Assembly (NCBI GenBank): GCA_949317995.1
Contig: OX439044.1
Coordinates: 13,487,141-13,551,140, forward strand
Direction of reading: 5' to 3'
Source: Acholoe squamosa
Taxonomy: Eukaryota; Annelida; Polychaeta; Phyllodocida; Polynoidae
Length of the DNA stretch: 64,000 bases
This document shows, piece by piece, positions 2,656-22,842 of the stretch. How positions within the stretch are numbered: position 1 is the stretch's first letter; each line of letters starts with the position of its first letter. The position numbers and the translations under genes are program-made. The notes beneath the pieces are model-generated. The model was not told where the DNA came from. It worked only from the letters and a program-made list of their open reading frames with translations, and made no database searches.

Positions 2656-5600
2656 AGATGCAAGTGTGCCATGTAGAATTCACAGTGTGTCTTATACATG
2701 GGATGTGCTTTCTACCCGAGGTATTACAATAGGTGAAATACAGAGACCAGAGGCAACATCTTACTATTACAAATCCCCAGTTGAGTTGAACCATTGTTCA
2801 CAGCTCTCTATGTGTCCATTACTCACTGATATAGCCATAGTCCCAAGAGATCTGTCTATCAGGCAGAAAGATCTAATCATCTCTCTGCAGTGTTTTGAAC
2901 TTTGAATTAATGAGATGTCCTGTAGAGTTTTAAATGACCCAACTAAGATACATTTATATGATTGTTCTCTCACAAAATACCACAATAGATGTATTTTGGC
3001 TTGTTGATAGCAGGGCATCTAATGTTTGTTTGAGAGTGTTGTATCAGTTTGGACTGCTTCAGGATAAAAGGCGGTTCGTTTCACTATACTGCATATGCGA
3101 CACTTCCCATGTGTAAAGAAGACCCCAACTCAGGACCACCATAAACAAATTTCATTACTATTAACTGCCTATTTCAGGAAAACTGATTGTGACAGAGTGT
3201 TTTTTTTAATGTCAGAGTGTGCAGAAAAATCATATGCTTTGTGAAACAGACCTTGTTATGGAAATATGTCAGCCAATATGACAACTCACGGCACACAGGT
3301 TTTTGCCAGCACAATTGCTGCCAGGCCTGTGGACATTGCCAGACTGCAGGACTGAATGTCTCCCTGTAATTTTTGGACCTTGGGCTACAATTTTTCTTTA
3401 CAAATTGCAAAATGGACCATTATAAAAGTTTATTCAACTTAAGATAAAAGGCATTACTGTTTGTTAAGAGTTGAATGATTTAAATAAAGAGTTAATTCTT
3501 GTTTTCCTTCCTCAAAATAATAATCTTAAGGTGTTCGGTCCTGCCATGATCAATCCAGGCCTGCAGAATAATAAACTGTGCAGGACCGAATGGCCTGCAA
3601 GGGGAAAAAGATTTCATATCGACTTCAATTATTAGGTGTCTAGGTGCGATCAATCCTTTGTAACCTTATGAAGCTCAATAGGGGGGAGTCCGTCCATATT
3701 TATACCTTATACTAGGGACATTATACTATATTCTTTCGTTTAAACCACACAAAAAACATTAAATGGGCTGATGGTTTAGGGCCACAGTAACTCCTTTTCC
3801 CAATAGAACAGGTAATCATCCTTGCCAGAAATATTCACATATTAACTTGGTTCAATGTCACACCTGGAGGTCTTGAGCTTCTGTCCATCACAAACAGTTC
3901 TTACCTCTCTTTTATTGAGAATTTTCATTGGAGTAAATTAAATTGAAGTCGACCCATTTTTTCAGGAAAGATTGATGAATACCAACAAAAAAAATGTCTT
4001 CCAAGTATTGAGAAGGATTTGGAGATAAGATAAAAGAAAATTGAATGTCTGGAGGTGGCCTTTGGACAATCAATCTTCAATGTCTTTTTTGGTTCAGAGT
4101 GTGCAATTTAGCACTCTTTTATTTAAATCAAAAATGTACCAAAATGTTTCATAAACACCATGTAGTAACATTTAGCTTCAAACAGATTTTGCTCATGTAT
4201 GCTGGCATATGTTCTTACAATCAGCAAGTGGCAAGGAAAGCATGTAGAGCGCAGGCAAATCACAATGAACATTGTGACACCAATTAGGAACACTGTAAAC
4301 CTGAAAGTACTGACAATACAGAGTCGTCAGTATAAAGTTGTCATGCTTAAGACAGGCATGATGTCCTGTAATCCTACAGAACTATACAAGCACTAATGAT
4401 GTGCAGGAAATAGGGGTGGGCCCTGGGGCTGACAGAAAGCGGCTGCTTTTCACCACTTCTTCAGCTTGTGCTATCAAATTGGCTGTCATCTCAGTATGTT
4501 GGGTAAGGGGGACCAGCTTCGTCCCCCCACCCCACATTGGTATAGAGCAGCTCACACACCTTGATTACCATCTACCTTCAACCAACACAAACCATGCTCT
4601 ATACTGCTGAATCCAGAGTGGACCAGCGATTTCTGGCTCTGGTCTCACGCTGTTGCTGGTTTCAGGCAATTTTTGTTCTGTTTATGGCTGGTCCCCACTT
4701 AATCTTGCAAGGAATTCCGAGGACAGAACTGTCATGGCTGCACACATATAAATAATATGAAACCGTGCTATAGCGGCAGAAGGGTCTGGAGGGTATTCCA
4801 AAACTGGCTACCTCTCATGCTTCTTGCAGGCCTTCATTACAAAGCTAGATAAGAGTGGCTAAGTAGCTACTCTATTCCTAATGCAAGGTGCTATGATCTT
4901 CTGGCAAACACAATGGCAGGCAGCAGTGGGCACAAGATTAATGTTGGACATTAGCACCCTATGGCTATAGCTAGGAATATGGGTGATGTGTGGGTGTGGC
5001 CATGACGGCACTGTTGTCAGCATGAAGCAGTGGCTTTGTTGATATTGAGCTTTGGCTGGGAACGGTGATTGGCATGTACATTGCAATTCAAGGTAGAAAC
5101 TGACATTCATGCCTTAAGTAACCCGGTAGTACGCTATAATACCCCCTGCCCTACCAGAGCTCCATACTAGAACCCACTATTATAACACTCCATAGAAGGG
5201 CATAATTGTACTAGAGTTGAACAGTGATCGGGGCTTGCTCTATCTATCGCATCTGAAATCAACTGTAGGAGGCTTTCATATCAGTGTGCTGGGTAAGGGT
5301 GTAAGTTCCCTTCAAGGTATGGAGCAGACACTCACCTACAACAAGCACTAGACATGGCTTATGGCGACCTATCAGGAGCGGGCTGGTTCCCAGCCTGATC
5401 ATCATCTACATGCTGACACCAGTAACTTCCGGACCTGATCCCGTTAGTCACACCTGGACCTGGCAGGTCAAACAGTTTGGAAGTATGGCACCATATGGCA
5501 CCGTATGGCTGCGCACCCGTGTATATAAACAAGAAAATCACTATTGCAGAAGCATGATCAGGACGATTGGCATCTTGTGGGGTAGTGCCTCCTGGCCATA

Positions 5601-7304
5601 AAAGTGCTGACTCATCAAATTGGGACCACAGCCAGATATTGAAGCTGATAGTTATTCACGTTTTGCCTGTAGATTACCCCTTTATCTCGTGTGCAGTCGT
5701 TGCTTGGAATTGAATCTGCATGTGATCTTGATGTATGCTTATAGAGTGTACCTTGTGTAAATGGAGAGTGCTTTCATTCCTTTTAGGGCAGTGATGAATA
5801 ATTATATCGTATGACTAGCCTGACTCAAATTGTAGTCCTACCGATTGCTGTAATTGCGGATAAATCACAACTGATTAGCCTGTTATCATAAACCCCTGCT
5901 TATAAGCTATACATGCAGGGTTATAGAGCAGTGATCCCTACTCCCTTCTTGTGCACAGCAGTTTTGATTCACAAATCTTAACCTAGGTTTAGAATTGTAC
6001 TAAATGTAGACTTTCATAAGTTGTGGTGCAGTGTCCCCCTAGGATGAAGACATAATACACTGAGGACCTCATTCTGGGTAATATTTCTGCATATTTAGAA
6101 GTATAAGCAAGGAGAGTAGATGTAGACGATCCTTGGCATGAGTGGCCGGACATCATTGGTGGAATGAAAAGGCAGCAATAGACTGGTTCTCTTGTAAAGA
6201 TGTTATAACTATGAGCACGTCCAGGCCATGTGCAGAGAAGATTAACCTACCTAGAACACACAGGGTGTTCTAAACGTATTTCATTCTCCCACTCACCTGA
6301 AATACAAAATGCATGCTTTGGTAAATCTCCACATAATAATAAATGCTTAAATCTGGCCAAATCACGTTTTTTTATACATTTCACCTTTATGGCCTGGATA
6401 TAATAGATCCTCAGGATAAAAGTCCTTTACTGAAAATAGTTAAATAGTTCTACTTTAAAATCGAACTTTGATTGATCCATATTACTACCTAATAAGGCAC
6501 AACCACCAAAAGGTAGCTACTTACAGTTAATGATTGCATATTTTCTGAGGATAAGGCTTATACGGAAAATTTGCCAAGAAAATGCAAATAAGTATTTAGA
6601 ACTGTTGCCAAAATTGGTTGGCAAGATTAGTTTCCTAATGATTTGGCCTTGCTCTAGTTTGAACGCATCAGGCCTAATCAAAAGAGTCCTATTATTACTG
6701 CCTATCCCCATTCCATCATTTGCTGGTGCATCCTTAGTAATTAAAGATTATTGGTGGGTCATTTCATCCACGTCAGGGAATGAATATCCCATTGTTTGAC
6801 ATGAAGAATTCAGAGCATTTGTCTTCGGTTCAACTCTTCATCAAACTTCCCATTATGTGCTTTTTATTCAGCGTTGAGCAGACTTAATGCATTATCCAGC
6901 CATAACCCTACTCTGTTCTTCTTCAAGAAGCCTTTGGTTAGAATCTGGACATGTTAATAATTATGGGAGATATACAAAGTCAACCTCGCCATACATTATC
7001 TGGTTTTACAAGTGGGTTTCTCCAGCTTCTCGGTCATGGATTATTGAACCCATAAACCCACTTGTGCTGTCTCATAACATTGATTAAAGTCCAGGCCATG
7101 TACACATATACATATAGATACTAAAGAGATGACTATCGCTGAGTTATCTATAGTAAATTAAGTCATGATAGCCCTCCTAATAGTTAATGATAATGACTGG
7201 AGAAAGAGAGCAAAGCGTATATGAAGCCTTTTTTTTAATCTATTTCAAATTCATTAATATGATATTCGACAGATTTGCCAAAAATGAGCCATTGCGAGTT
7301 ATCC
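2656..7304. other. long unrecognised stretch with two small hairpins
   Basis: No supported gene in 4.6 kb. All ORFs are under 90 codons and none shows a domain I recognise. Two local inverted repeats stand out. Arms reading TTCGGTCCTGC and GCAGGACCGAA lie near 3535 and 3582. Exact 12-bp arms ACAAGTGGGTTT and AAACCCACTTGT lie at 7008-7019 and 7054-7065. Either could be the remnant of a small foldback element. Confidence 0.45.
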
Positions 7305-7400
7305 ACTAGGGCTACATTCATGCATCATAATGACCAAAGGGCATGATGCATTAATGGCCATTATAAGAATACAAAACTAATGCCCCTTACAGGTAATTTA
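7305..7400 (+). repeat. dispersed repeat A (CATGATGCATTAATG family)
   Basis: Contains 'catgcatcataatgacca' and 'gggcatgatgcattaatg'. This is a fragment of a family with further copies at about 17630-17715, 59540-59700, 60190-60780 and 62690-62880. The best copies include a hairpin with 17-bp arms starting GCAYGAATGCAGCCCTG. Here only the 3' half is left. Confidence 0.55.
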
Positions 7401-7953
7401 CATTCCTCATCAGATCTACCTTTATTAAAGGTATGGTGAGTATTATGGGTGGGGATGGATTTTATGTCCCTGAGTTTTATTATTATATAGGACTTATTTT
7501 CAGTGCTTCTTTTTTCATGTTTTTTTTCTTTTTAAATTGCAATATACTGGAAATATAATATTTAAAGTCCCATATGGACAAACAAACTGTGCCCTGTATA
7601 ACAGATGCACAGTATTGTATGAGATAAATTGAGAAGATGGAAATGAATACTAGTATTAGGAAAATACAAAATTGAATCGAAATAATCCTTTCCTTTGTGA
7701 TAGAGGATATGTATGTAAAATGATTCTACATATATCAGGGAGAGGCAGAGTATGCTCATGCTTTGTGCATGCTCAGAGCATGCTTTGTCAAGCATATTTA
7801 ATATCTACAATATTAAATACAGCGAAGGAAACTCAAACCACTGATGAAAGATAAGCCATAAAACACAGCTTTCTTCTTTATTACACAGAATGTCTGATAA
7901 TACAGTCCCATAAGTGCACAAGATATCGGATAAAACACCTGCTGAATGAGGTA

Positions 7954-8176
7954 CACTGTAAAAAATAGCTGCTGAATCCACCAGGGATCTTCATAAAACT
8001 GAATAGTGGACCACTGTAATTGTATGGCGGTGAACCAGTGTAGTTTTAAGAAGAAGCCCAAGGTGGCAGTGCATCGGTACACAAATGTACAAGGAATATC
8101 TGTTAAAATAACTATGTATCTCTGGCAACCTTAGGACAAGAATTCTTCATTATTTCGATGACATTTTTTAATAGTG
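7954..8176 (+). mobile_element. CACTG-ended miniature element, copy A
   Basis: A 223-bp element starting CACTGTAAAAAATAG and ending TTTTTTAATAGTG, with TA on both sides (7952-7953 and 8177-8178). It shares internal blocks such as 'agtggacca', 'aattgtatggc' and 'ctctggcaacctt' with copies at 14435, 16432, 26310, 27780 and 28836. CACTG ends with a 2-bp target duplication fit a non-autonomous EnSpm/CACTA-like element (family inference). Confidence 0.75.
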
Positions 8177-8253
8177 TACTGTATACTGCATTACCATAGT
8201 TCATGTAAGGGTAAGGCCCATTGCTTCACTAAAAGAATCTGCCTGATGTCAGG

Positions 8254-8997
8254 GTGGACTTTATAGGGGAGGATTTTGCCAGAATTTCTCATTATATATT
8301 ACAATCTATTATTATTGAAATCTATGGGATATTAGGAAGGAGTGACATAATATGTCTATGTGAAACCTGGCTGAAGCCTGCCTCACCTGATGGCCTGGTT
8401 AATAGAGAGGATAGGTTACTGTATAGGAATGATAGAATTGGTAAAAATTGTGGAGGAGTTGGCCTAAGTGTGAAGGCTTGCCTAGGGCAGTATATTAGAG
8501 TTGTAAATGACTTTACCATACAGACCATCGATTATGAAAGTATTGCTATTATGTTAAACCTTCCTGGTGAAAAGGATTTATTGATTGTCTCTATCTATAG
8601 AATCCCAAATACAAATGTACCAAATTTTATTAATTTCTTACGATCCATCGCTGGTTACGAATATAACAACAATCATGGTAGGCATGAGACTTGGATCTTA
8701 GGTGATATTAATCTCAATATGTATGATGAAAATGATGCAGGGTGTGAAAGTTTCAGAAATGTGTGCAAGGATATTGGATGGAAAATACTAATTAATGAGG
8801 TGACGAGACCATTTAGTGGTACTTGTATTGATAACATAATTACAAATAGCTTAGATGTAACTAATGCAAGTACGGTCTCTGCCCTAATTTCTGATCACCT
8901 CCCAGTTTTTGGTTGTAGAGGACATGAGAATATCAGTTATATTAGCACTAAGTATAGAGGAAGAGATTATAGAAACTTTAATGAAGACTGATTTTGA
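8254..8997 (+). pseudogene. LINE endonuclease domain, copy 1 (broken)
   Basis: Fragment of an AP-like endonuclease, which nicks target DNA to prime reverse transcription. Visible motifs are CETWLKP (catalytic Glu), SIYRIPN, LGDINLN (catalytic Asp/Asn) and the terminal SDHLP (catalytic Asp/His). The N-terminal Asn motif, present in the other copy as SINCRS, is missing because the copy is truncated. The first 20 or so codons from 8254 have no counterpart in copy 2 and are flanking sequence. Two in-frame TGA codons at 8989-8991 and 8995-8997 separate it from the RT part, which continues in the same frame. Confidence 0.88.
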
Positions 8998-11048
8998 GAT
9001 TTTTTAGAATCATGTGACTGGAAACCCTATTATAATATTACTGATGATCCTGATATATTATGGGATATGTTATTGACTCCGTTAATTGAGTATTTGGACA
9101 CTTTTCACCCTCATGTTGAACGATACATTAAAAAAAGTAGGAGATCATGGATTGATGATGAAGTTATGGATTTAGTATTTGAAAGCGAAGGATGGTTACG
9201 TCTCTATAGTGCCAATAAAAGTGTTCAGGAAAAGCAAGCCATAAAGGATTGTCGAAGAAAAATTAGAAAGAAAATTAAAGCAAATCAAATTGGTGGTGTC
9301 ATGCAAGAGTTGCAAGTAAGTTATGGTAATCCCAAAAAATTCTGGAAACACATAAATAACTTGTTTAAAAATTTGAATTCTATTGTGTATCCAGACATGA
9401 GACATCATATAACTGGTGCTGATGTAACTTCTGATGATGTTTGTGAATATGTAAATGACTATTTTTGTGATATTGGTAAGGATCTGCATATTGCTGCTGT
9501 TGGAACTGATCAATATCTTGTGGATAATAATCTATATATAGATGAACTATTGGCAAACAAAAACTTCTTAGATCAGAATATTAAGGTTAATAAGTGGGAT
9601 GTCCATTTTGCTCTAAAAGAAATTGATAAAAATAAGTCATCAGGCATAGACGGAATAAGGGGAGATATACTACATTGTGCATTATTGTGGTTGATAAATC
9701 AATTCACTCATCTGATACAAATTAGTTTGGACAGGGGTATTTTTCCAAAATGTTGGGCAATGGCAGTTGTAAGATCATTACCTAAGGATGGGGATTTGGC
9801 AATGGTAAAAAATTGGCGACCCATATCAATACTACCAATGCCGTCTAAAGTCATTGAGAAAATTATGTATTATTACTTATGTGAAAGTATGAAGAAAAAT
9901 GGTACTTTTTGTGAAAAGCAATATGGTTACAAAAAAGGGACAGGTACTGGTGATGCCACTTTTGACTTTGTTAATGAGCTTTATGAATGTAGAAACAATG
10001 GTCTGATAACAGGGGCTCTATTTATAGACTTCACTAAAGCATTTGACAGTGTATTACATTCAAAATTGCTAATTAAACTCAGTAAACTTGGTTTGAGTAA
10101 ATCTAATTTTCTATGGTTTAAAAGTTACCTGGAAAATAGAAAACAACGAACTAGCTATGGTAATAAATTGTCCTCAAATCAAGATATTGATTACCGTGTC
10201 CCTCAAGGATCAGTTTTAGGTCCCCTGTTGTTTGTCCTATATATTGATAATGTTGTTAAGGTTTAAAAAAAAATGCAAGATTAAACTGTATGCTGATGAC
10301 ATTGTGATTTATAGTTCTAACAAAGATGTAGACTTGGTTAATGAGAATTTGAATGAAGATGTAATTAACTTTAAGTGTTGGGTTATCGAAAACAGACTAA
10401 CAGTAAATCCAACTAAAACAAAATTTATGTGGTTTTGTAGTGCTCATAAATTAAAAAGATTCTACTATAGACTTCAATGGCAGCACTGTGCAAACTGTCA
10501 CCTTCTTTCCATATCTATGTGTACATATTGACAGTAAACTTAGTTTTGATAAACAGATTAAAATTATTAAAAGAAATGTATGCAATAAACTATTTAGGTT
10601 TGCTAAGTTAAGAAAGTTTTTAACACAAGAGCAAAGTGTAAAGATATACTGTTGTACAATCAGACCAATTATAGAATATTGTTCATTTATAAGTACTAGT
10701 TGTAATGAGGATGGTCTTGCGGCATTACAATGACTGCAAAACAGAGCTCTTAGAGTTTGTCTGAAATGCAATATTAGACGGTATAGTGTGAAGGAGTTGC
10801 ATGACATTTGTAAGGTTCCTGTGTTAAATAGACCACAATCTTATAATACAAGGTCTCAAAAGAAGATTGTTTTTGAACTACCTAGGGTTATTACTAGACA
10901 CTATAAAAGATCACCATGGTACAGAGGGGTGGCTCTCTGGAATACTCTACCTGAGGAGATTCAGAAAGCTACGACAAAGGTAAAATTCAAAGAGGGTGTG
11001 ATGAAGATAGAAAATATAAGGTTGAACCTGAAATTGGGTTATAATTGA
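8998..11048 (+). pseudogene. LINE reverse transcriptase, copy 1 (multiple breaks)
   Basis: Continuation of ORF2. The linker KSSGIDGIRGDIL leads into the RT fingers. RT motifs follow: WRPISILPMPSKVIEKI, FIDFTKAFDS (first catalytic Asp), VPQGSVLGPLLF and YADD (10289-10300). The thumb and C-terminal region ends HYKRSPWYRG..LWN.LP. Lesions: a 1-nt gain plus an in-frame TAA within an A-run at 10261-10273, just before YADD; a frameshift near 10460-10490; a TGA at about 10732; and a deletion of roughly 60 nt near 10815 relative to copy 2. The product cannot be functional. Confidence 0.9.
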
Positions 11049-11054
11049 TAATGA

Positions 11055-11082
11055 GAAGCAGGTGTGGAAACTGTGCCGCTTC
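11055..11082 (+). ncRNA. post-ORF2 hairpin with conserved loop, LINE copy 1
   Basis: Begins 6 nt after the ORF2 stop. The stem is GAAGC/GCTTC, followed by a bulged A and a GG/CC pair, closing a 13-nt loop TGTGGAAACTGTG. The same architecture with different stem sequences recurs at 22500-22527, 18563-18590 and 18696-18727. Conserved loop plus changed but still pairing stems indicates a selected RNA structure. Its function is unknown: possibly RT or RNP recognition, or a translation signal. Confidence 0.7.
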
Positions 11083-11485
11083 ATATTCATATTCATACTC
11101 ACATTCATATCCTTTTTCATGTTTACATCCATATTGATATTGCTGATGTTCCCATATGCATATAACAGCACATACTACCAACTCTAATTATCACTTATTT
11201 GAACTAAAGACAAGGTGTATTTAGCTGTAATCATGATGTACTGAAATAATGTGTAGACACACAAATCTCTATGTATGACATATTATTTACTATCTATCTC
11301 TTTTTGCTTTTAATTTGTATGTCTGTACTTTCTATATTAATAACCTATTGAGTGAATATTGCCAGTCCCTATTTTTCCATCTGCTGATTGTGTTCATATT
11401 GACATTTGTCAAGATCCATGAAGTTATTGTACTGTTTCATATGTGACTTTCCTTTGAAAATCAATGAAACTTGGTCTGCTCTATA

Positions 11486-11520
11486 GCATTATTTAAATGA
11501 ACATAGCAGTTCATTAATGC
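11486..11520 (+). ncRNA. 3'-terminal bulged stem-loop of LINE copy 1
   Basis: The outer stem GCATT/AATGC and inner stem AATGAAC/GTTCATT are separated by a 5-nt bulge on the 5' side. The loop has 6 nt. It sits 13 nt before the A-tail. The other LINE copy has GCGTT/AACGC in the outer stem, a compensatory change. 3'-terminal stem-loops of this sort are the RT recognition site in stringent LINEs such as UnaL2 (known). The assignment here is inferred from position and covariation. Confidence 0.7.
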
Positions 11521-11612
11521 AATGAGCAAGTCCAAAAAAAAAAAAAAGAGAATGGCAAAGACCTAACCCCCAGATGTGCCTTACAGTAGCTATCTGTACA
11601 CCTTGAAGGCAG

Positions 11613-17715: not shown

Positions 17716-17874
17716 CATTTTAAATACTAATCAATGTATATCATCCCAACCCAATAAGGTGCATTCCCAAATACTGCTGATTCTATAAGGCTCACAAGAT
17801 CCCAATCCTCGCTTAAAAGTTGCACCACAGTTGATGCTTCTGGTGTAAATGGCAGTAAAGATAAGGTTATAGGG

Positions 17875-18471
17875 ATGAGCTCTCCAGGATCTATTAGTAC
17901 TGACGATGAAGATGATGATGGTGAAGATGATGAACAAAATCCTGAAGTTCACCAAAGGCAGACCAAAGCTGGGCTGATCTACAGGGGCAAGAACAGCTTC
18001 TTAAGCAACTGGTACCCATGCACATTTAAAGCTGATGTCCTTGGTCAAACCATGGAGTTCTGTAGTGTGGAGCAGGGTTATTTCTATTGTAAATTGAGAG
18101 AGTTAGGTTACCACAGGCTTGCCTCAGACATCATGAAAATTACCAGTGCCAAGAAAATCAAAAACAAATGTAAGCATTACAAAGCACCACCAGGCCATTA
18201 CTGGCACACAGTCTCACAAAAATATATGAAGGCACTCATTAGTGCCAAGTATGATCAATGTGAGGGGCCAAGAAAATCACTTCTAGGAACAGGCTCAACC
18301 GTCCGAGTGGAAGGTTGTAGGGATATGATCTGGGGTGGTGGGTTTGTATACAGTTCTGAAGCATATGATCAGGGTAGAGTGAAGGGGCAGAATCTACATG
18401 GCAAGATAACCATGGCAACCAGGTGCCTGATTAGAGAGAAAGAGAGAAATAAGCCATTGATTGTGTTGTAA
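17875..18471 (+). CDS. NADAR (YbiA/DUF1768-like) domain protein
   Basis: A 198-residue intact single-exon ORF. Residues 40-185 match the NADAR fold: FLSNWYPCTF (42-51), SVEQGYFYCK (64-73, with the family's conserved Glu-Gln), SAKKIKNKCK (91-100), W110 with KYMKALISAKYDQ (116-128), LLGTG (136-140), RDMIWGGG (149-156, family D..WG) and a G.NLHG..TMATR end (171-183). Family members cleave or bind N-glycosidic ADP-ribose- or ribosylamine-type metabolites; YbiA acts on riboflavin intermediates. The actual substrate here is unknown. Residues 10-20 are almost all Asp/Glu. The frame is open upstream to 17758, so the true start could be earlier or the ORF 5'-truncated. Two hairpins follow, matching those after the LINE ORF2. 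Intactness in a decayed neighbourhood suggests recent activity. Confidence 0.85.
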   Translation: MSSPGSISTDDEDDDGEDDEQNPEVHQRQTKAGLIYRGKNSFLSNWYPCTFKADVLGQTMEFCSVEQGYFYCKLRELGYHRLASDIMKITSAKKIKNKCKHYKAPPGHYWHTVSQKYMKALISAKYDQCEGPRKSLLGTGSTVRVEGCRDMIWGGGFVYSSEAYDQGRVKGQNLHGKITMATRCLIREKERNKPLIVL

Positions 18472-18562: not shown

Positions 18563-18590
18563 GTAATGGGTGTAGTTGCTGTGCCATTAC
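18563..18590 (+). ncRNA. first post-NADAR hairpin with conserved loop
   Basis: Starts 91 nt after the NADAR stop. Stem GTAAT/ATTAC, bulged G, GG/CC pair, loop TGTAGTTGCTGTG. It fits the loop consensus TGTRGNNRCYGYG of the hairpins that follow LINE ORF2, but with an unrelated outer stem sequence. Confidence 0.7.
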
Positions 18591-18695
18591 AAACAATAAT
18601 GTATACTCTCTATAACATATGCATCTATATAGAAATAGAATAGAATGTGAATCTGAGAATATATTTGATTGTTATGTATTGGTTGAGATCGATAT

Positions 18696-18727
18696 CAGTA
18701 ATAGGTGTAGAAACCGCGCCATTACTG
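18696..18727 (+). ncRNA. second post-NADAR hairpin with conserved loop
   Basis: Stem CAGTAAT/ATTACTG (7 bp), bulged A, GG/CC pair, loop TGTAGAAACCGCG. It lies 133 nt downstream of the first. The stem resembles its tandem neighbour, so the pair may have arisen by local duplication, but the loop is closer to the copy at 22500. Confidence 0.72.
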
Positions 18728-19600
18728 TGTATCACCTCTTAATTTATGACAAGCAATCAATCTTGTATGTTAATTAATTCATCCTGTAATCGTAAGTATC
18801 TAATATATTAAGGGACTGTTTACCCTAAAATCGTTAGGATAAGAGTTTATCTATTCATTGAGCATTGTATGCAAGACTTTTTTATAGTAATACATATAAG
18901 GGAGTGTTTACCTTTAAGTCTGTCACTGCAGTAGTGTGTAGAAGTTTGGTATAATACATGTACTTATCTAGTTAGAGTTCTGTGCATAGACCTCAAGGAT
19001 GGTTTCTATGCTTTGGTTAAAATACATTATCTTGCTAATTGGTGATTATGGAGATTCTGGCTGTTTAATAAAGTGGAATTTAATCAATGTATCCACAGGT
19101 TGGTTTCAATAGTAATCCAATACATTCCCCTCTCTATTGTTTTTGCTTCTTTAAATTTGGATCAATTATGATATTTGACAAAATGCCTTAAATTCTTCTT
19201 TTTTTTTTTTTTTTTTTTTTTAATTCTAAATTAGGTTAAAAATCTTAAGTGTCACTGTTGCTGTCCTTTAATATCATTAACCCTAGCGATAACCAGTTAT
19301 AAGATCTTAAGTCGCCAAGGAGTTTCTAAGTTGGGGGGATTTTTCTCTGATTAGCCACATAGCTGACATAGGTAAGCTGGTATAATCAGTCACCCCTTCT
19401 ACGAGGATAATTTGTGGAAGACGATTTGTATATTCTGTAATTAGTCATTTATTTGTTGTTCTTTTGTTGAGGCTTTTTCATATGTGTATATATCATGATA
19501 CTGGTATTGGACATTGCTTTCTTTTCCGTTGTTGTTAATGTATCTCACCTTGTATATTACCTAATGAGATGGCATCATTATTATCCCATTATTATTTGAA
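18728..19600 (+). other. spacer between NADAR ORF and LINE ORF2, with T23 run
   Basis: No ORF of note. A run of 23 T (19199-19221) could be the reverse-oriented A-tail of another retroposed sequence or an internal pyrimidine tract. ORF2's frame is open upstream of its ATG only to 19568, where TAA and TGA occur (19562-19567), so ORF2 does not extend into the spacer. Confidence 0.55.
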
Positions 19601-22484
19601 ATGGTACTTTGTATTGAGGAATTTAACAACAGTAAGGGGCTGGTGATTTCTTCAATTAATTGTCGTAGTTTTGAAGACAAACATGAAGAGATATACAAGT
19701 TATTGAAACGTAGTGATATAATTTGTTTATGTGAAACCTGGCTTAAGCCTGCTTCACCAGAGGGAATTATAAATATACCTGATCGTATTTTGTATAGAAA
19801 TGATCGAATTGGTAAGAATTGTGGTGGAGTAGGCCTTAGTTGTAGATCTGGTTTATGTCGATATATTAGCATTGTAAATGATTTGACTATTCAATCGATT
19901 GATTTTGAAAGTATTGCTATTATGCTATGTCTACCGGGTGAGAAAGAACAGCTCATAGTATCTATTTATAGAATACCAAATACCAATGTACTAAATTTTC
20001 TTACTTTTCTAAAGAAGGTAGCTGGATTTGAATATAATGATAATCAAGGGAGACATGAGACTTGGGTATTAGGTGATATTAATCTAAATATGTTTGATGA
20101 TACTGATGCAAGCTGTGAGAGTTTTAGGTCATTATATAAAGATTTAGGATGGAAAATTCTGGTACATGAGGTTACTCGTCCCTTTAGTGGTACTTGTATT
20201 GACAATGTATTATCAAATTGTGTTAACATTACTGATGCAGGTACGGTAGAAGCATTCATTTCTGATCACATTCCTGTATTTGGCTGTAAGGGCCGTGAGA
20301 ATTACAAGTATACTAAAACAACTTATTCAGGCCGTGATTATAGGAATTTTAAAGAAAGTAATTTCAAAGATTTCCTGCAATCTTGTGATTGGACATTGTA
20401 TTATGATAAAAATTTGAGTAGTGATGTGCTGTGGGACATGTTCCTAACACCTATTAATCAGTATCTGGATAAATATCATCCCTTTGTTGAGAGATTAGTT
20501 AAAAAAACAAGAAAAAGTTGGATAGATGATGAAGTAATGGATCTTGTTTTTGAGAGGGAAGGGTGGTTAAGGTTGTATAAGGTGAATAAAAGTGATGAAG
20601 AGAAGCAAGCTATTAAAGATTGCAGGAGAAAAATTAGGAAAAAAATAAAAGCTAATCAAATTGGTGGTATTATGCAAGAATTACATGAATGTAGAGGAAA
20701 TCCTAAGAGTTTTTGGAAATATATTAATAACATGTTTAAGGGTAATGGGTCTGAGATATATCCAGATATGAAGCACCATGAAGATGGTGTTAAGGTCCCA
20801 TCCAAAACTGCTTGTGAATATATTAATCAATACTTTTGCAATATTGGAAAAGACTTACATGTGGCCTCTGTTAGTAAAGTACAGTGTGATATGGATAATA
20901 ATGTGAGTATAGAGGAAATCATTCAGGGTGGAACTTTCTCTAAATCGAATATAAAGATTAATTCCTGGGATATCTATTATACAGTAAAAGAGATTGATAA
21001 AAATAAATCATCCGGAATAGAGGGGATCAGAGGTGATATACTACAATGTGCAATAATATGCCTGCTAGATCAATTTACTTTTCTTGTTCAGAGAAGTTTT
21101 GATAGTGGTGGTTTTCCTGTCAAATGAGCTTCTGCATTGGTCAAGCCATTACCCAAAGACGGAGATTTATCTCAAGTTAAGAATTGGAGGCCTATTTCGC
21201 TATTGCCAATGCCCTCAAAAATTATTGAAAAAATAATGTATTATCATTTAAGTGCCATGAAAGATCACGATAATTTTTTCAGATGAGCAATATGGTTACA
21301 AGAAAGGTAGTGGTACAGGTGATGCCACCTTTGACTTTGTTAATGATCTATATGAGTATCGTAATGATGGTTTAATAACAGGGGCCCTATTTATTGACTT
21401 TACTAAAGCGTTTGACAGTGTAATTCATGTTAGACTTCTGGAAAAAATTAGCAAATTAGGTTTCAGCAAAAATAACTTTCTCTGGTTTAATAGTTATCTA
21501 AAAAACCGCAAACAAAGTACTAGTTATGGCAATAATGTCTCTCAAGAATCTGAAATCAAATATGGTGTCCCACAAGGGTCTGTTTTAGGCCCCCTGTTGT
21601 TTGTTTTATACATAGATGATGTGATTAAAGAGTTGAACGAGTGCAAAATTAAAATGTATGCAGATGACATTGTTTTATATTATGCAGCAAAAACACCCCA
21701 AGATGTAATGAGAGTGTTAAATGAGGATCTTGAACGCTTTAAGACATGGGTATCTCACAACAGGTTGACTGTTAATCCAAAGAAAACAAAATTTATGTGG
21801 TTTTGTAGTGCTCACAAATTGAAAAATTGTCCAGATACAGATATTGTAATAAATGGTACCAGAGTAGAAACTGTAAGTTTTTTCCCCTACCTAGGAGTTA
21901 CAGTGGACAGTAAGTTAAGTTTTGACAAACAAATTAAGCTTATTAAAAGAAACATTTGTAATAAATTATTTAGATTTGCTAAATTAAGGAAATATCTCAC
22001 ACAAGAAGAAAGCATAAAAATATATTGTTGTACCATCCGGCCGATTATTGAATATTGCTCTTTTATAAGTACTAGTTGTAATGAGGAAGGTTTAAAGGCA
22101 TTACAACGTTTACAGAATAGAGCTTTGAGAATTTGCCTTAGATGTAATATTGTTAAATATAGTGTTAATGAGTTACATGTCATCTGTAAAGTGGAAAAAT
22201 TAGAACAAAGATTTGATATGTTACTTTTAAGTTTGATGTATAAGAAATCCAAAGATCAGATAAATCATGGTCATGCATATAATACAAGACCGCAAAATAA
22301 GATATGTTTTAAATTGCCAAGAAGTATATCTCGCCATTACAAAAGATCGCCATGGTACAGGGGTGTAGTCCTATGGGACCTACTATCTGAGGAGGTTCAG
22401 AGGGCTACCACAAAAGTTAAATTTAAGAATGAGGTTAAAAAGTTAAAAAATCTCAGATCAAGGCTAAAGGTTGGATATAACTAA
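19601..22484 (+). pseudogene. LINE ORF2: endonuclease-reverse transcriptase (two lesions)
   Basis: About 960 codons. Endonuclease residues 1-230: N20 (SINCRS), E45 (CETWLKP), Y123 (SIYRIP), D159/N161 (LGDINLN) and SDH (221-223) are all present. The central region ends FWKYINNMF and SSGIEGIRGDIL. RT motifs are NWRPISLLPMPSKII, FIDFTKAFDS, VPQGSVLGPLLF and YADD (21657-21668). The C-terminus has HYKRSPWYRG. Only two breaks are visible. TGA at 21125-21127 replaces a Trp codon (copy 1 has TGG). One extra T in the T-run near 21275 shifts the frame. The element was therefore intact until recently. Similarity to copy 1 is high at protein level but with many silent and coding changes, so the two are separate lineages of one family. 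Confidence 0.92.
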
Positions 22485-22499
22485 GGAACAAAGGTTGAT

Positions 22500-22527
22500 G
22501 GAGACGGTGTAGTCACCGCGCCGCTCC
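22500..22527 (+). ncRNA. post-ORF2 hairpin with conserved loop, LINE copy 2
   Basis: Begins 15 nt after the ORF2 stop. Stem GGAG/CTCC, bulged A, then CGG/CCG, closing loop TGTAGTCACCGCG. Compared with copy 1 (GAAGC/GCTTC) the stem has changed on both sides while pairing is kept. Confidence 0.72.
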
Positions 22528-22782
22528 AAATATTATTTATGTGATCAGCATATTTTCATCATCATATAATATTATATCATTGATGATCATTTGATTGTAT
22601 TTTGTGTTTCTTGTGTCATATCGATATATATCTCAACAAATATTATGTGATTGATTTGATACACTTGCCTGCTTCCTTACTGTTATTGTACATAATGACA
22701 TATGTTTGATTATGTGGAGTCTATATTTACTTCAACTGTTTGGTATCTGTTTGAAATATAAATAAAAATGGTCGGCTCTATA

Positions 22783-22817
22783 GCGTTACATAAATGAACC
22801 TGACAGTTCATTAACGC
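22783..22817 (+). ncRNA. 3'-terminal bulged stem-loop of LINE copy 2
   Basis: Outer stem GCGTT/AACGC, 5-nt bulge, inner stem AATGAAC/GTTCATT, 6-nt loop. The terminal AATGAGCWAGTCC then joins the A12 tail at 22831. The 3'-most 60 bp is the best conserved part of the UTR between the two copies, as expected for an RT binding site. An AATAAA lies just upstream at about 22760. Confidence 0.72.
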
Positions 22818-22842
22818 AATGAGCTAGTCCAAAAAAAAAAAA

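Follow-up and report, generated by a model that had tools for sequence, protein, structure and literature searches.

Why should the same short RNA hairpin recur just past the stop codons of several long interspersed nuclear elements (LINEs)? The locus that raises this question is a 64-kb window of the Acholoe squamosa genome (G000:C10:13487141-13551140 of 1.48 Gb), by which the whole analysed stretch is meant. Inside it lie two LINE copies, A and B, and four copies of the hairpin. The hairpin is present there and elsewhere in the genome, its outer stem covaries, its core is conserved, it is anchored to stop codons and it is shared among elements with dissimilar second open reading frames (ORF2s). 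The reading favoured here, with a probability of roughly 0.4, is a stop-anchored, cis-acting hairpin recognized by an RNA-binding factor, probably of the host, and perhaps serving as a shield against RNA decay.

A sequence-only reading of the window had described four hairpins with a common 13-nt loop, and all four are present. Their bit scores under model R1 are those of members of its training set:

11055..11082, + strand: hairpin 3' of the copy A ORF2; stem GAAGC/GCTTC, bulged A, core GGTGTGGAAACTGTGCC; R1 45.6 bits
18563..18590, + strand: first post-ORF1 hairpin of copy B; stem GTAAT/ATTAC, core GGTGTAGTTGCTGTGCC; R1 39.9 bits
18696..18727, + strand: second post-ORF1 hairpin of copy B; stem CAGTAAT/ATTACTG, core GGTGTAGAAACCGCGCC; R1 45 bits
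22500..22527, + strand: hairpin 3' of the copy B ORF2; stem GGAG/CTCC, bulged A one pair further out, core GGTGTAGTCACCGCGCC; R1 43.6 bits

Several details of that description need adjustment. The outer stems do pair, but they are not four unrelated ones: only three types occur, the two post-ORF1 hairpins sharing GTAAT/ATTAC. The single bulge on the 5' side is present, although its site differs, being directly 5' of the GG in three window hairpins and one pair further out at 22500 (GGAG-a-CGG). The loop sequence is constant, but its 13 nt can fold further, into a wobble-rich stem around a 3-nt loop.

Across 22 hairpin classes the near-constant core spans 17 nt (GGTGTRGNNNCYGYGCC). No change occurs in columns 1-5, 7, 15 and 17; one or two exceptions occur in columns 6, 10, 11, 13 and 16, columns 12 and 14 hold C or T, and columns 8 and 9 vary. 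This conservation is partly built in, because the core, or a model built on it, served to retrieve the classes. The retrieval pattern did not demand pairing of the outer stem, which is included in the model behind some rows. The possible core pairs are G-C, G-C, U.G, G-C or G.U, U.G, R.Y and G-C, around three bases. At the R.Y position, 15 classes have A.C, 6 have A-U and 1 has G.U; among the first 100 genomic core matches, which are dominated by copies of few families, the counts are 62 A.C, 23 G.U, 12 A-U and 3 G-C. A.C and G.U pairs have a common wobble geometry. An alternative core fold, GGU/RCY, was rejected, the GG/CC fold being lower in energy in 20 of the 22 hairpins. Taken singly, two of the window's four hairpins hardly exceed shuffled sequences in stability (folding z-scores of -1.98 at 11055, -1.47 at 18563, -3.31 at 18696 and -4.25 at 22500). 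Support for the hairpin is comparative and does not come from single-sequence stability.

The claim that a selected RNA structure is involved is borne out by the outer stem, whose types include GAAGC/GCTTC, GTAAT/ATTAC, GTGAT/ATCAC, GACCT/AGGTC and GGAG/CTCC. Alignment A3 contains 20 distinct hairpins, two family-B ORF1 hairpins without the bulge having been left out. In its 5-bp outer stem, 91 of 100 cells (91%) are paired, and 28 cells are changed on both sides against a shuffle mean of 7.5, with none of 500 shuffles as high. The covariation score of this stem is 0.80, against a shuffle mean of 0.23 and at most 0.14 for slid partners; such scores are inflated by kinship among rows, and shuffle controls do not remove relatedness. 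Other counts from A3 do not exceed the shuffles, namely outer-stem pairs with a double change (4 versus 3.4; 250 of 500 as high) and further outer-stem pair types (11 versus 9.3; 85 of 500). Over all 14 pairs, those with a double change equal the shuffle mean (6 versus 6.0). Pairing between the flanks of 22 hairpins gives a matched mean of 9.9, compared with 2.3 for 354 swaps between different flanks and 7.2 for the best of 5000 permutations. Five of these hairpins (L013, L039a, L043b, L050b and L057) have imperfect stems and score below 8.

The loop pattern first noticed, TGTRGNNRCYGYG, matches the window four times where 0.18 matches are expected, a number reached in 0 of 100 shuffles. Genome-wide, the 17-nt core has 468+473 = 941 matches, against 79+72 = 151 for the reversed pattern, so about one-sixth of the core matches are expected by chance. 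Most genomic copies belong to few abundant families. Association with LINE ORFs had been named beforehand as one of the points on which the motif would stand or fall. Among 48 distinct core matches, taken from the start of a list sorted by position together with selected loci and thus not a random sample, 45 lie at most 1.5 kb downstream of a tblastn match to ORF1, ORF2 or a middle ORF of one LINE clade. Two of the other three are LINE sequence by their flanks (L046+5914 has those of the family-A post-ORF1 hairpin, L059 the family-B 3' flank), and the third, L027, has no stem and looks like a chance match.

A motif-blind search points the same way. A 184-aa C-terminal fragment of ORF2 was compared with the genome, and the best 150 of 15,045 candidates were 78-100% identical. 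Among the ORF2 ends so found on C1 and on C2 below 97.3 Mb, the part of the genome for which the listing of core matches is complete, 13 of 16 are followed by the exact core, 15-16 nt past the match, and the remaining three by the core with one change. Twenty regions were then taken, comprising the three misses and 17 others; L106 was left out, its region coming from the wrong side. The model detects the hairpin in all 19 correct-side regions (31.5-50 bits), 13 of which hold the exact core. Outside this genome, no relative was confirmed by ORF2 alignment among 23 pattern matches in genome_contigs or 40 in viral_contigs, and 11 exact matches in viral_contigs to an 18-nt form of the core were taken as chance. 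A search with the ORF2 protein yielded 72 proteins, the best 55% identical and from a 3887-base contig; one named match is from Pinctada imbricata (26%). The family-A ORF1 search found no homologue.

Placement just after LINE stop codons, as the sequence-only reading had proposed, is a consistent feature. In ten families of the A/B clade the first core nucleotide is at +9 to +22 relative to the ORF2 stop, and in each the stop codon comes directly after the last aligned residue. Extra copies follow internal (ORF1) stops in families A and B, and two or three hairpins follow ORF2 in L039, L043 and L050. The better-preserved family-A element L009 has ORF1 at 2821-4290, hairpins at 4380 and 4515, ORF2 at 5275-8214 (979 aa) and a hairpin at 8219. 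In the family-B element L040, an ORF1 with a NADAR domain is followed, 3 nt past its stop, by the core of a first hairpin; a second hairpin precedes the middle ORF, and then comes ORF2 with one more hairpin behind it. At E<=1 the model finds three hairpins in each of these two elements and none upstream of ORF1 or within the ORFs. The conserved 3' tail, located in 7 of the 15 sequences tried, folds into a stable hairpin of its own and lies 300 nt downstream of the stop-side hairpin in family B, 448 nt in family A, 440 nt in L018 and 394 nt from the first hairpin of L039 (272 nt from the second). The narrow distance to the stop, next to a tail distance that varies from 300 to 448 nt, counts in favour of stop anchoring.

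The hairpin also reaches beyond this clade. The ORF2 of L038 led to a distant clade, from which 12 ORF2 3' regions of 551 nt were examined; two of them, the near-identical L068 and L069, carry the hairpin, as does L047, the source of the query. The hairpin-bearing L113 and its hairpin-less sister L114 are 78.7% identical in ORF2, and share 28.6% and 28.0%, respectively, with family A. Since L113 has the hairpin despite this distance from family A, and its close sister does not, the hairpin does not follow the ORF2 protein (ORF2p). In the linker between endonuclease and reverse transcriptase (RT), family A and L113 are 10-16% identical.

A special link between the hairpin and NADAR is not supported. 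The domain (PF08719) was found in ORF1 of families A and B, and the genome holds 3224 NADAR candidates (150 scored), those examined (families A, B and L081) lying in LINE ORF1. The ORF1 of the L114-type sister has it as well (1.8e-18), and this element showed no hairpin in either of the parts covered, namely the 3' region of ORF2 and the ORF1-ORF2 stretch, so NADAR was rejected as a strict hairpin partner. The L080 stretch, which bears the hairpin, lacks most of ORF1 and yielded no post-ORF1 hairpin.

We propose that LINE mRNAs carry, directly past their stop codons, a short hairpin acting in cis. An RNA-binding factor would read its near-constant, wobble-rich core, whereas the stem would need only to pair. 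Binding by some protein is likely. As one core serves LINE families with unrelated ORF2 linkers, a shared host protein is a likelier reader than the RT of each element, and a host factor is slightly favoured over an element-encoded one. The placement (9-22 nt past ORF2 stops; 3 or 98 nt past ORF1 stops) would keep a bound protein on ribosome-free RNA near the terminating ribosome. The benefit might be that a multi-ORF transcript is not treated as an RNA with a premature stop, in other words a shield against nonsense-mediated decay (NMD). This is the leading guess as to the role, tentative as it is, because of the placement and a precedent in Rous sarcoma virus (RSV).

A 400-nt RSV stability element (RSE) directly after the gag stop protects RNA from UPF1 through binding of PTBP1, and the effect is lost with distance (PMC4764554). 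The present hairpin, too, comes right after a stop codon internal to a retroelement RNA with several ORFs (+3 in family B ORF1, +98 in family A), and it also occurs after ORF2. It differs in being about 30 nt long and structured with a fixed core, and a decay role would be assigned to it by analogy. At the hairpins, long pyrimidine runs like that of the RSE were neither required nor found. In its strongest form, the proposal is of a portable module, in which a host protein reads the core in dissimilar LINEs, marks the stop as legitimate and keeps multi-ORF mRNA from NMD. This complete version is doubtful; if it were true, the host protein should also have ligands in the cell that await discovery. 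For the question of how LINE mRNAs with two or more ORFs escape decay and gather their own proteins, the hairpin offers a defined RNA bait for finding its reader, and its motif could be used to search the genomes of other animals.

Several observations weigh against this proposal. Ten of the 12 distant-clade ORF2 3' regions have no hairpin at E<=10, and the hairpin is therefore dispensable in that clade, although several of the ten are close to one another and represent fewer families than regions. In L068 and L069 the core starts as far as +58 after ORF2, and the first post-ORF1 hairpin of family A lies 98 nt from its stop. The hairpin of L113's family may have been captured from an A/B element, and the motif was not identified in any host RNA other than those of LINEs. 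Decay resistance in Turnip crinkle virus was abolished by a stable hairpin created just after a stop (PMC6277124). A readthrough structure after another stop gave resistance in the same virus (PMC6277124), so that by analogy this evidence cuts both ways for a decay shield.

The hairpin-less relatives show other features past the ORF2 stop. Four of the ten (L072, L073, L077 and L078) have pyrimidine runs of 14-32 nt within 150 nt of it (shuffle p 0.000-0.05) and the other six have none; these runs, noticed only in retrospect, are given no weight here. By eye, the 3' untranslated regions of L074, L077 and L078 contain another candidate hairpin, GATAGCA...TGCTATC, with an inner CAGT/ACTG.

The strongest rival, a serious one although unlikely, is a recognition signal for the element's own ORF2p or ORF1 protein (ORF1p). 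On this view the hairpin would mark the RNA, from an internal site, as a template or for packaging, in addition to the 3'-terminal stem-loop, and would serve cis preference and ribonucleoprotein assembly. In two L2-clade LINEs, ORF2p binds the 3' tail through the region between endonuclease and RT (PMC4176376). The stringent-type 3' stem-loops of that clade (UnaL2, ZfL2-1 and ZfL2-2; PMC4176376) likewise combine a constant loop with an exchangeable stem, and the UnaL2 stem has a single bulged nucleotide. The present hairpin has this design of constant loop and variable paired stem; moreover, both families A and B (70% ORF2 identity) carry it, and chimeras of A-type ORF1 and B-type ORF2 keep the same core in all their hairpins. 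In contrast to the UnaL2 and ZfL2 tails, however, it stands at stop codons, in up to three copies per element and in LINEs with dissimilar linkers, and its binding by ORF2p is putative. It is not at the element's end but 300-448 nt upstream of the tail, where a separate 3'-terminal hairpin exists, and its post-ORF1 copies are far from the start site of reverse transcription. The RT recognition considered by the sequence-only reading is weakened by that distance and by the sharing of the core across linkers as different as those of family A and L113, the latter having a 79%-identical sister without the hairpin. For the ORF1p version, the ORF1 of the L113 element is mostly missing, which leaves no ORF1p comparison.

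A somewhat less likely rival, also serious, is RNA localisation, with a host transport factor that would deliver the RNA of LINEs to the germline or the nucleus in the way that Egalitarian (Egl) carries the Drosophila I element. Sharing among unrelated LINEs fits a host factor. The Egl-bound I-element hairpins (PMC6114517) are a case of retrotransposon RNA hairpins with a host reader, which in the present case is putative; the present hairpin differs from them in its near-constant core sequence and its anchoring to stops. That anchoring, and the repetition after each ORF, would be left unexplained by localisation.

A translation signal for readthrough, reinitiation or internal initiation is improbable. 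It would suit the position 3-22 nt past stops, and one family-B hairpin lies just ahead of the middle ORF. Even so, no conserved downstream frame exists: in family A three in-frame stops follow one another, in family B a stop falls inside the ORF1 hairpin, and all three phases relative to the stop occur among the ten families. No ORF2-like ORF follows ORF2, which is the last ORF of the elements seen, and the reinitiation role first suggested is accordingly unlikely. Readthrough into a coding peptide (GVxTAPL in one frame of families A and B) was rejected, given the varying phases and the tandem stops of family A. Least probable is functionless inheritance from a few ancestral LINE families. 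It would suit the abundance of few families and the relatedness that shuffles leave in place, but not stems changed on both sides around an unchanged core, nor a core that recurs between different flanks within a single element and is present in a distant clade as well.

As to novelty, the remark of the sequence-only reading that it knew of no described LINE motif with this loop is supported. No Rfam 15 family reaches its curated threshold; in one of the scans the only match over the hairpin is to snoR28, on the other strand, with 22.5 bits against a threshold of 45. No description of such a stop-side LINE hairpin was found in the literature searched, which did not include subscription journals or Repbase. 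NADAR-bearing LINE ORF1s are in print for Tx1 families of the Pacific oyster (PMC12477816). The likeness to families A and B is one of domain content, and no hairpin is mentioned in the excerpt of that paper (PMC12477816).

The remaining features of the two window copies are as follows:

8313..11048, + strand: copy A ORF2 (endonuclease-RT), 5'-truncated and frame-interrupted; ORF pieces, with RVT_1 at 4.6e-21 in one piece
11471..11537, + strand: separate 3'-terminal hairpin of copy A, ahead of the A-run; -22.3 kcal/mol, z -4.63
17758..18471, + strand: 3' part of the copy B ORF1, with NADAR domain; PF08719 9.5e-22
19568..22484, + strand: copy B ORF2, interrupted, with open pieces at 19568-21127 and 21261-22484
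22768..22833, + strand: separate 3'-terminal hairpin of copy B, ahead of the A-run; -21.6 kcal/mol, z -4.52

The A-runs start at about 11534 in copy A and 22831 in copy B. The copy A ORF2 is about 95-98% identical to L009 in blastn pieces, and window positions 19491-22842, the ORF2 region of copy B, are 98.3% identical to L040. Copy B is a natural chimera: sequence of family-A type reaches to about 19496, and sequence of family-B type begins at about 19491. Four copies share this junction (L009 5301; L040 5292-5296) upstream of ORF2, namely at window 19491-19496, at L045 3277-3282 and at L041 1224 and 5751, with only 68 nt of A-type sequence ahead of it in L041. Because it recurs in L045 and twice in L041, the chimera represents an element type that has propagated, as opposed to a rearrangement private to copy B. 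The middle ORF of family B between ORF1 and ORF2 (L040:4085-4762, 225 aa) is weakly GDSL-lipase-like (E 0.02, below the cut-off), and no PDB relative of it was found. Finally, in a single case, L059:1501, the 5' truncation of a family-B copy falls at the GG of the hairpin core.

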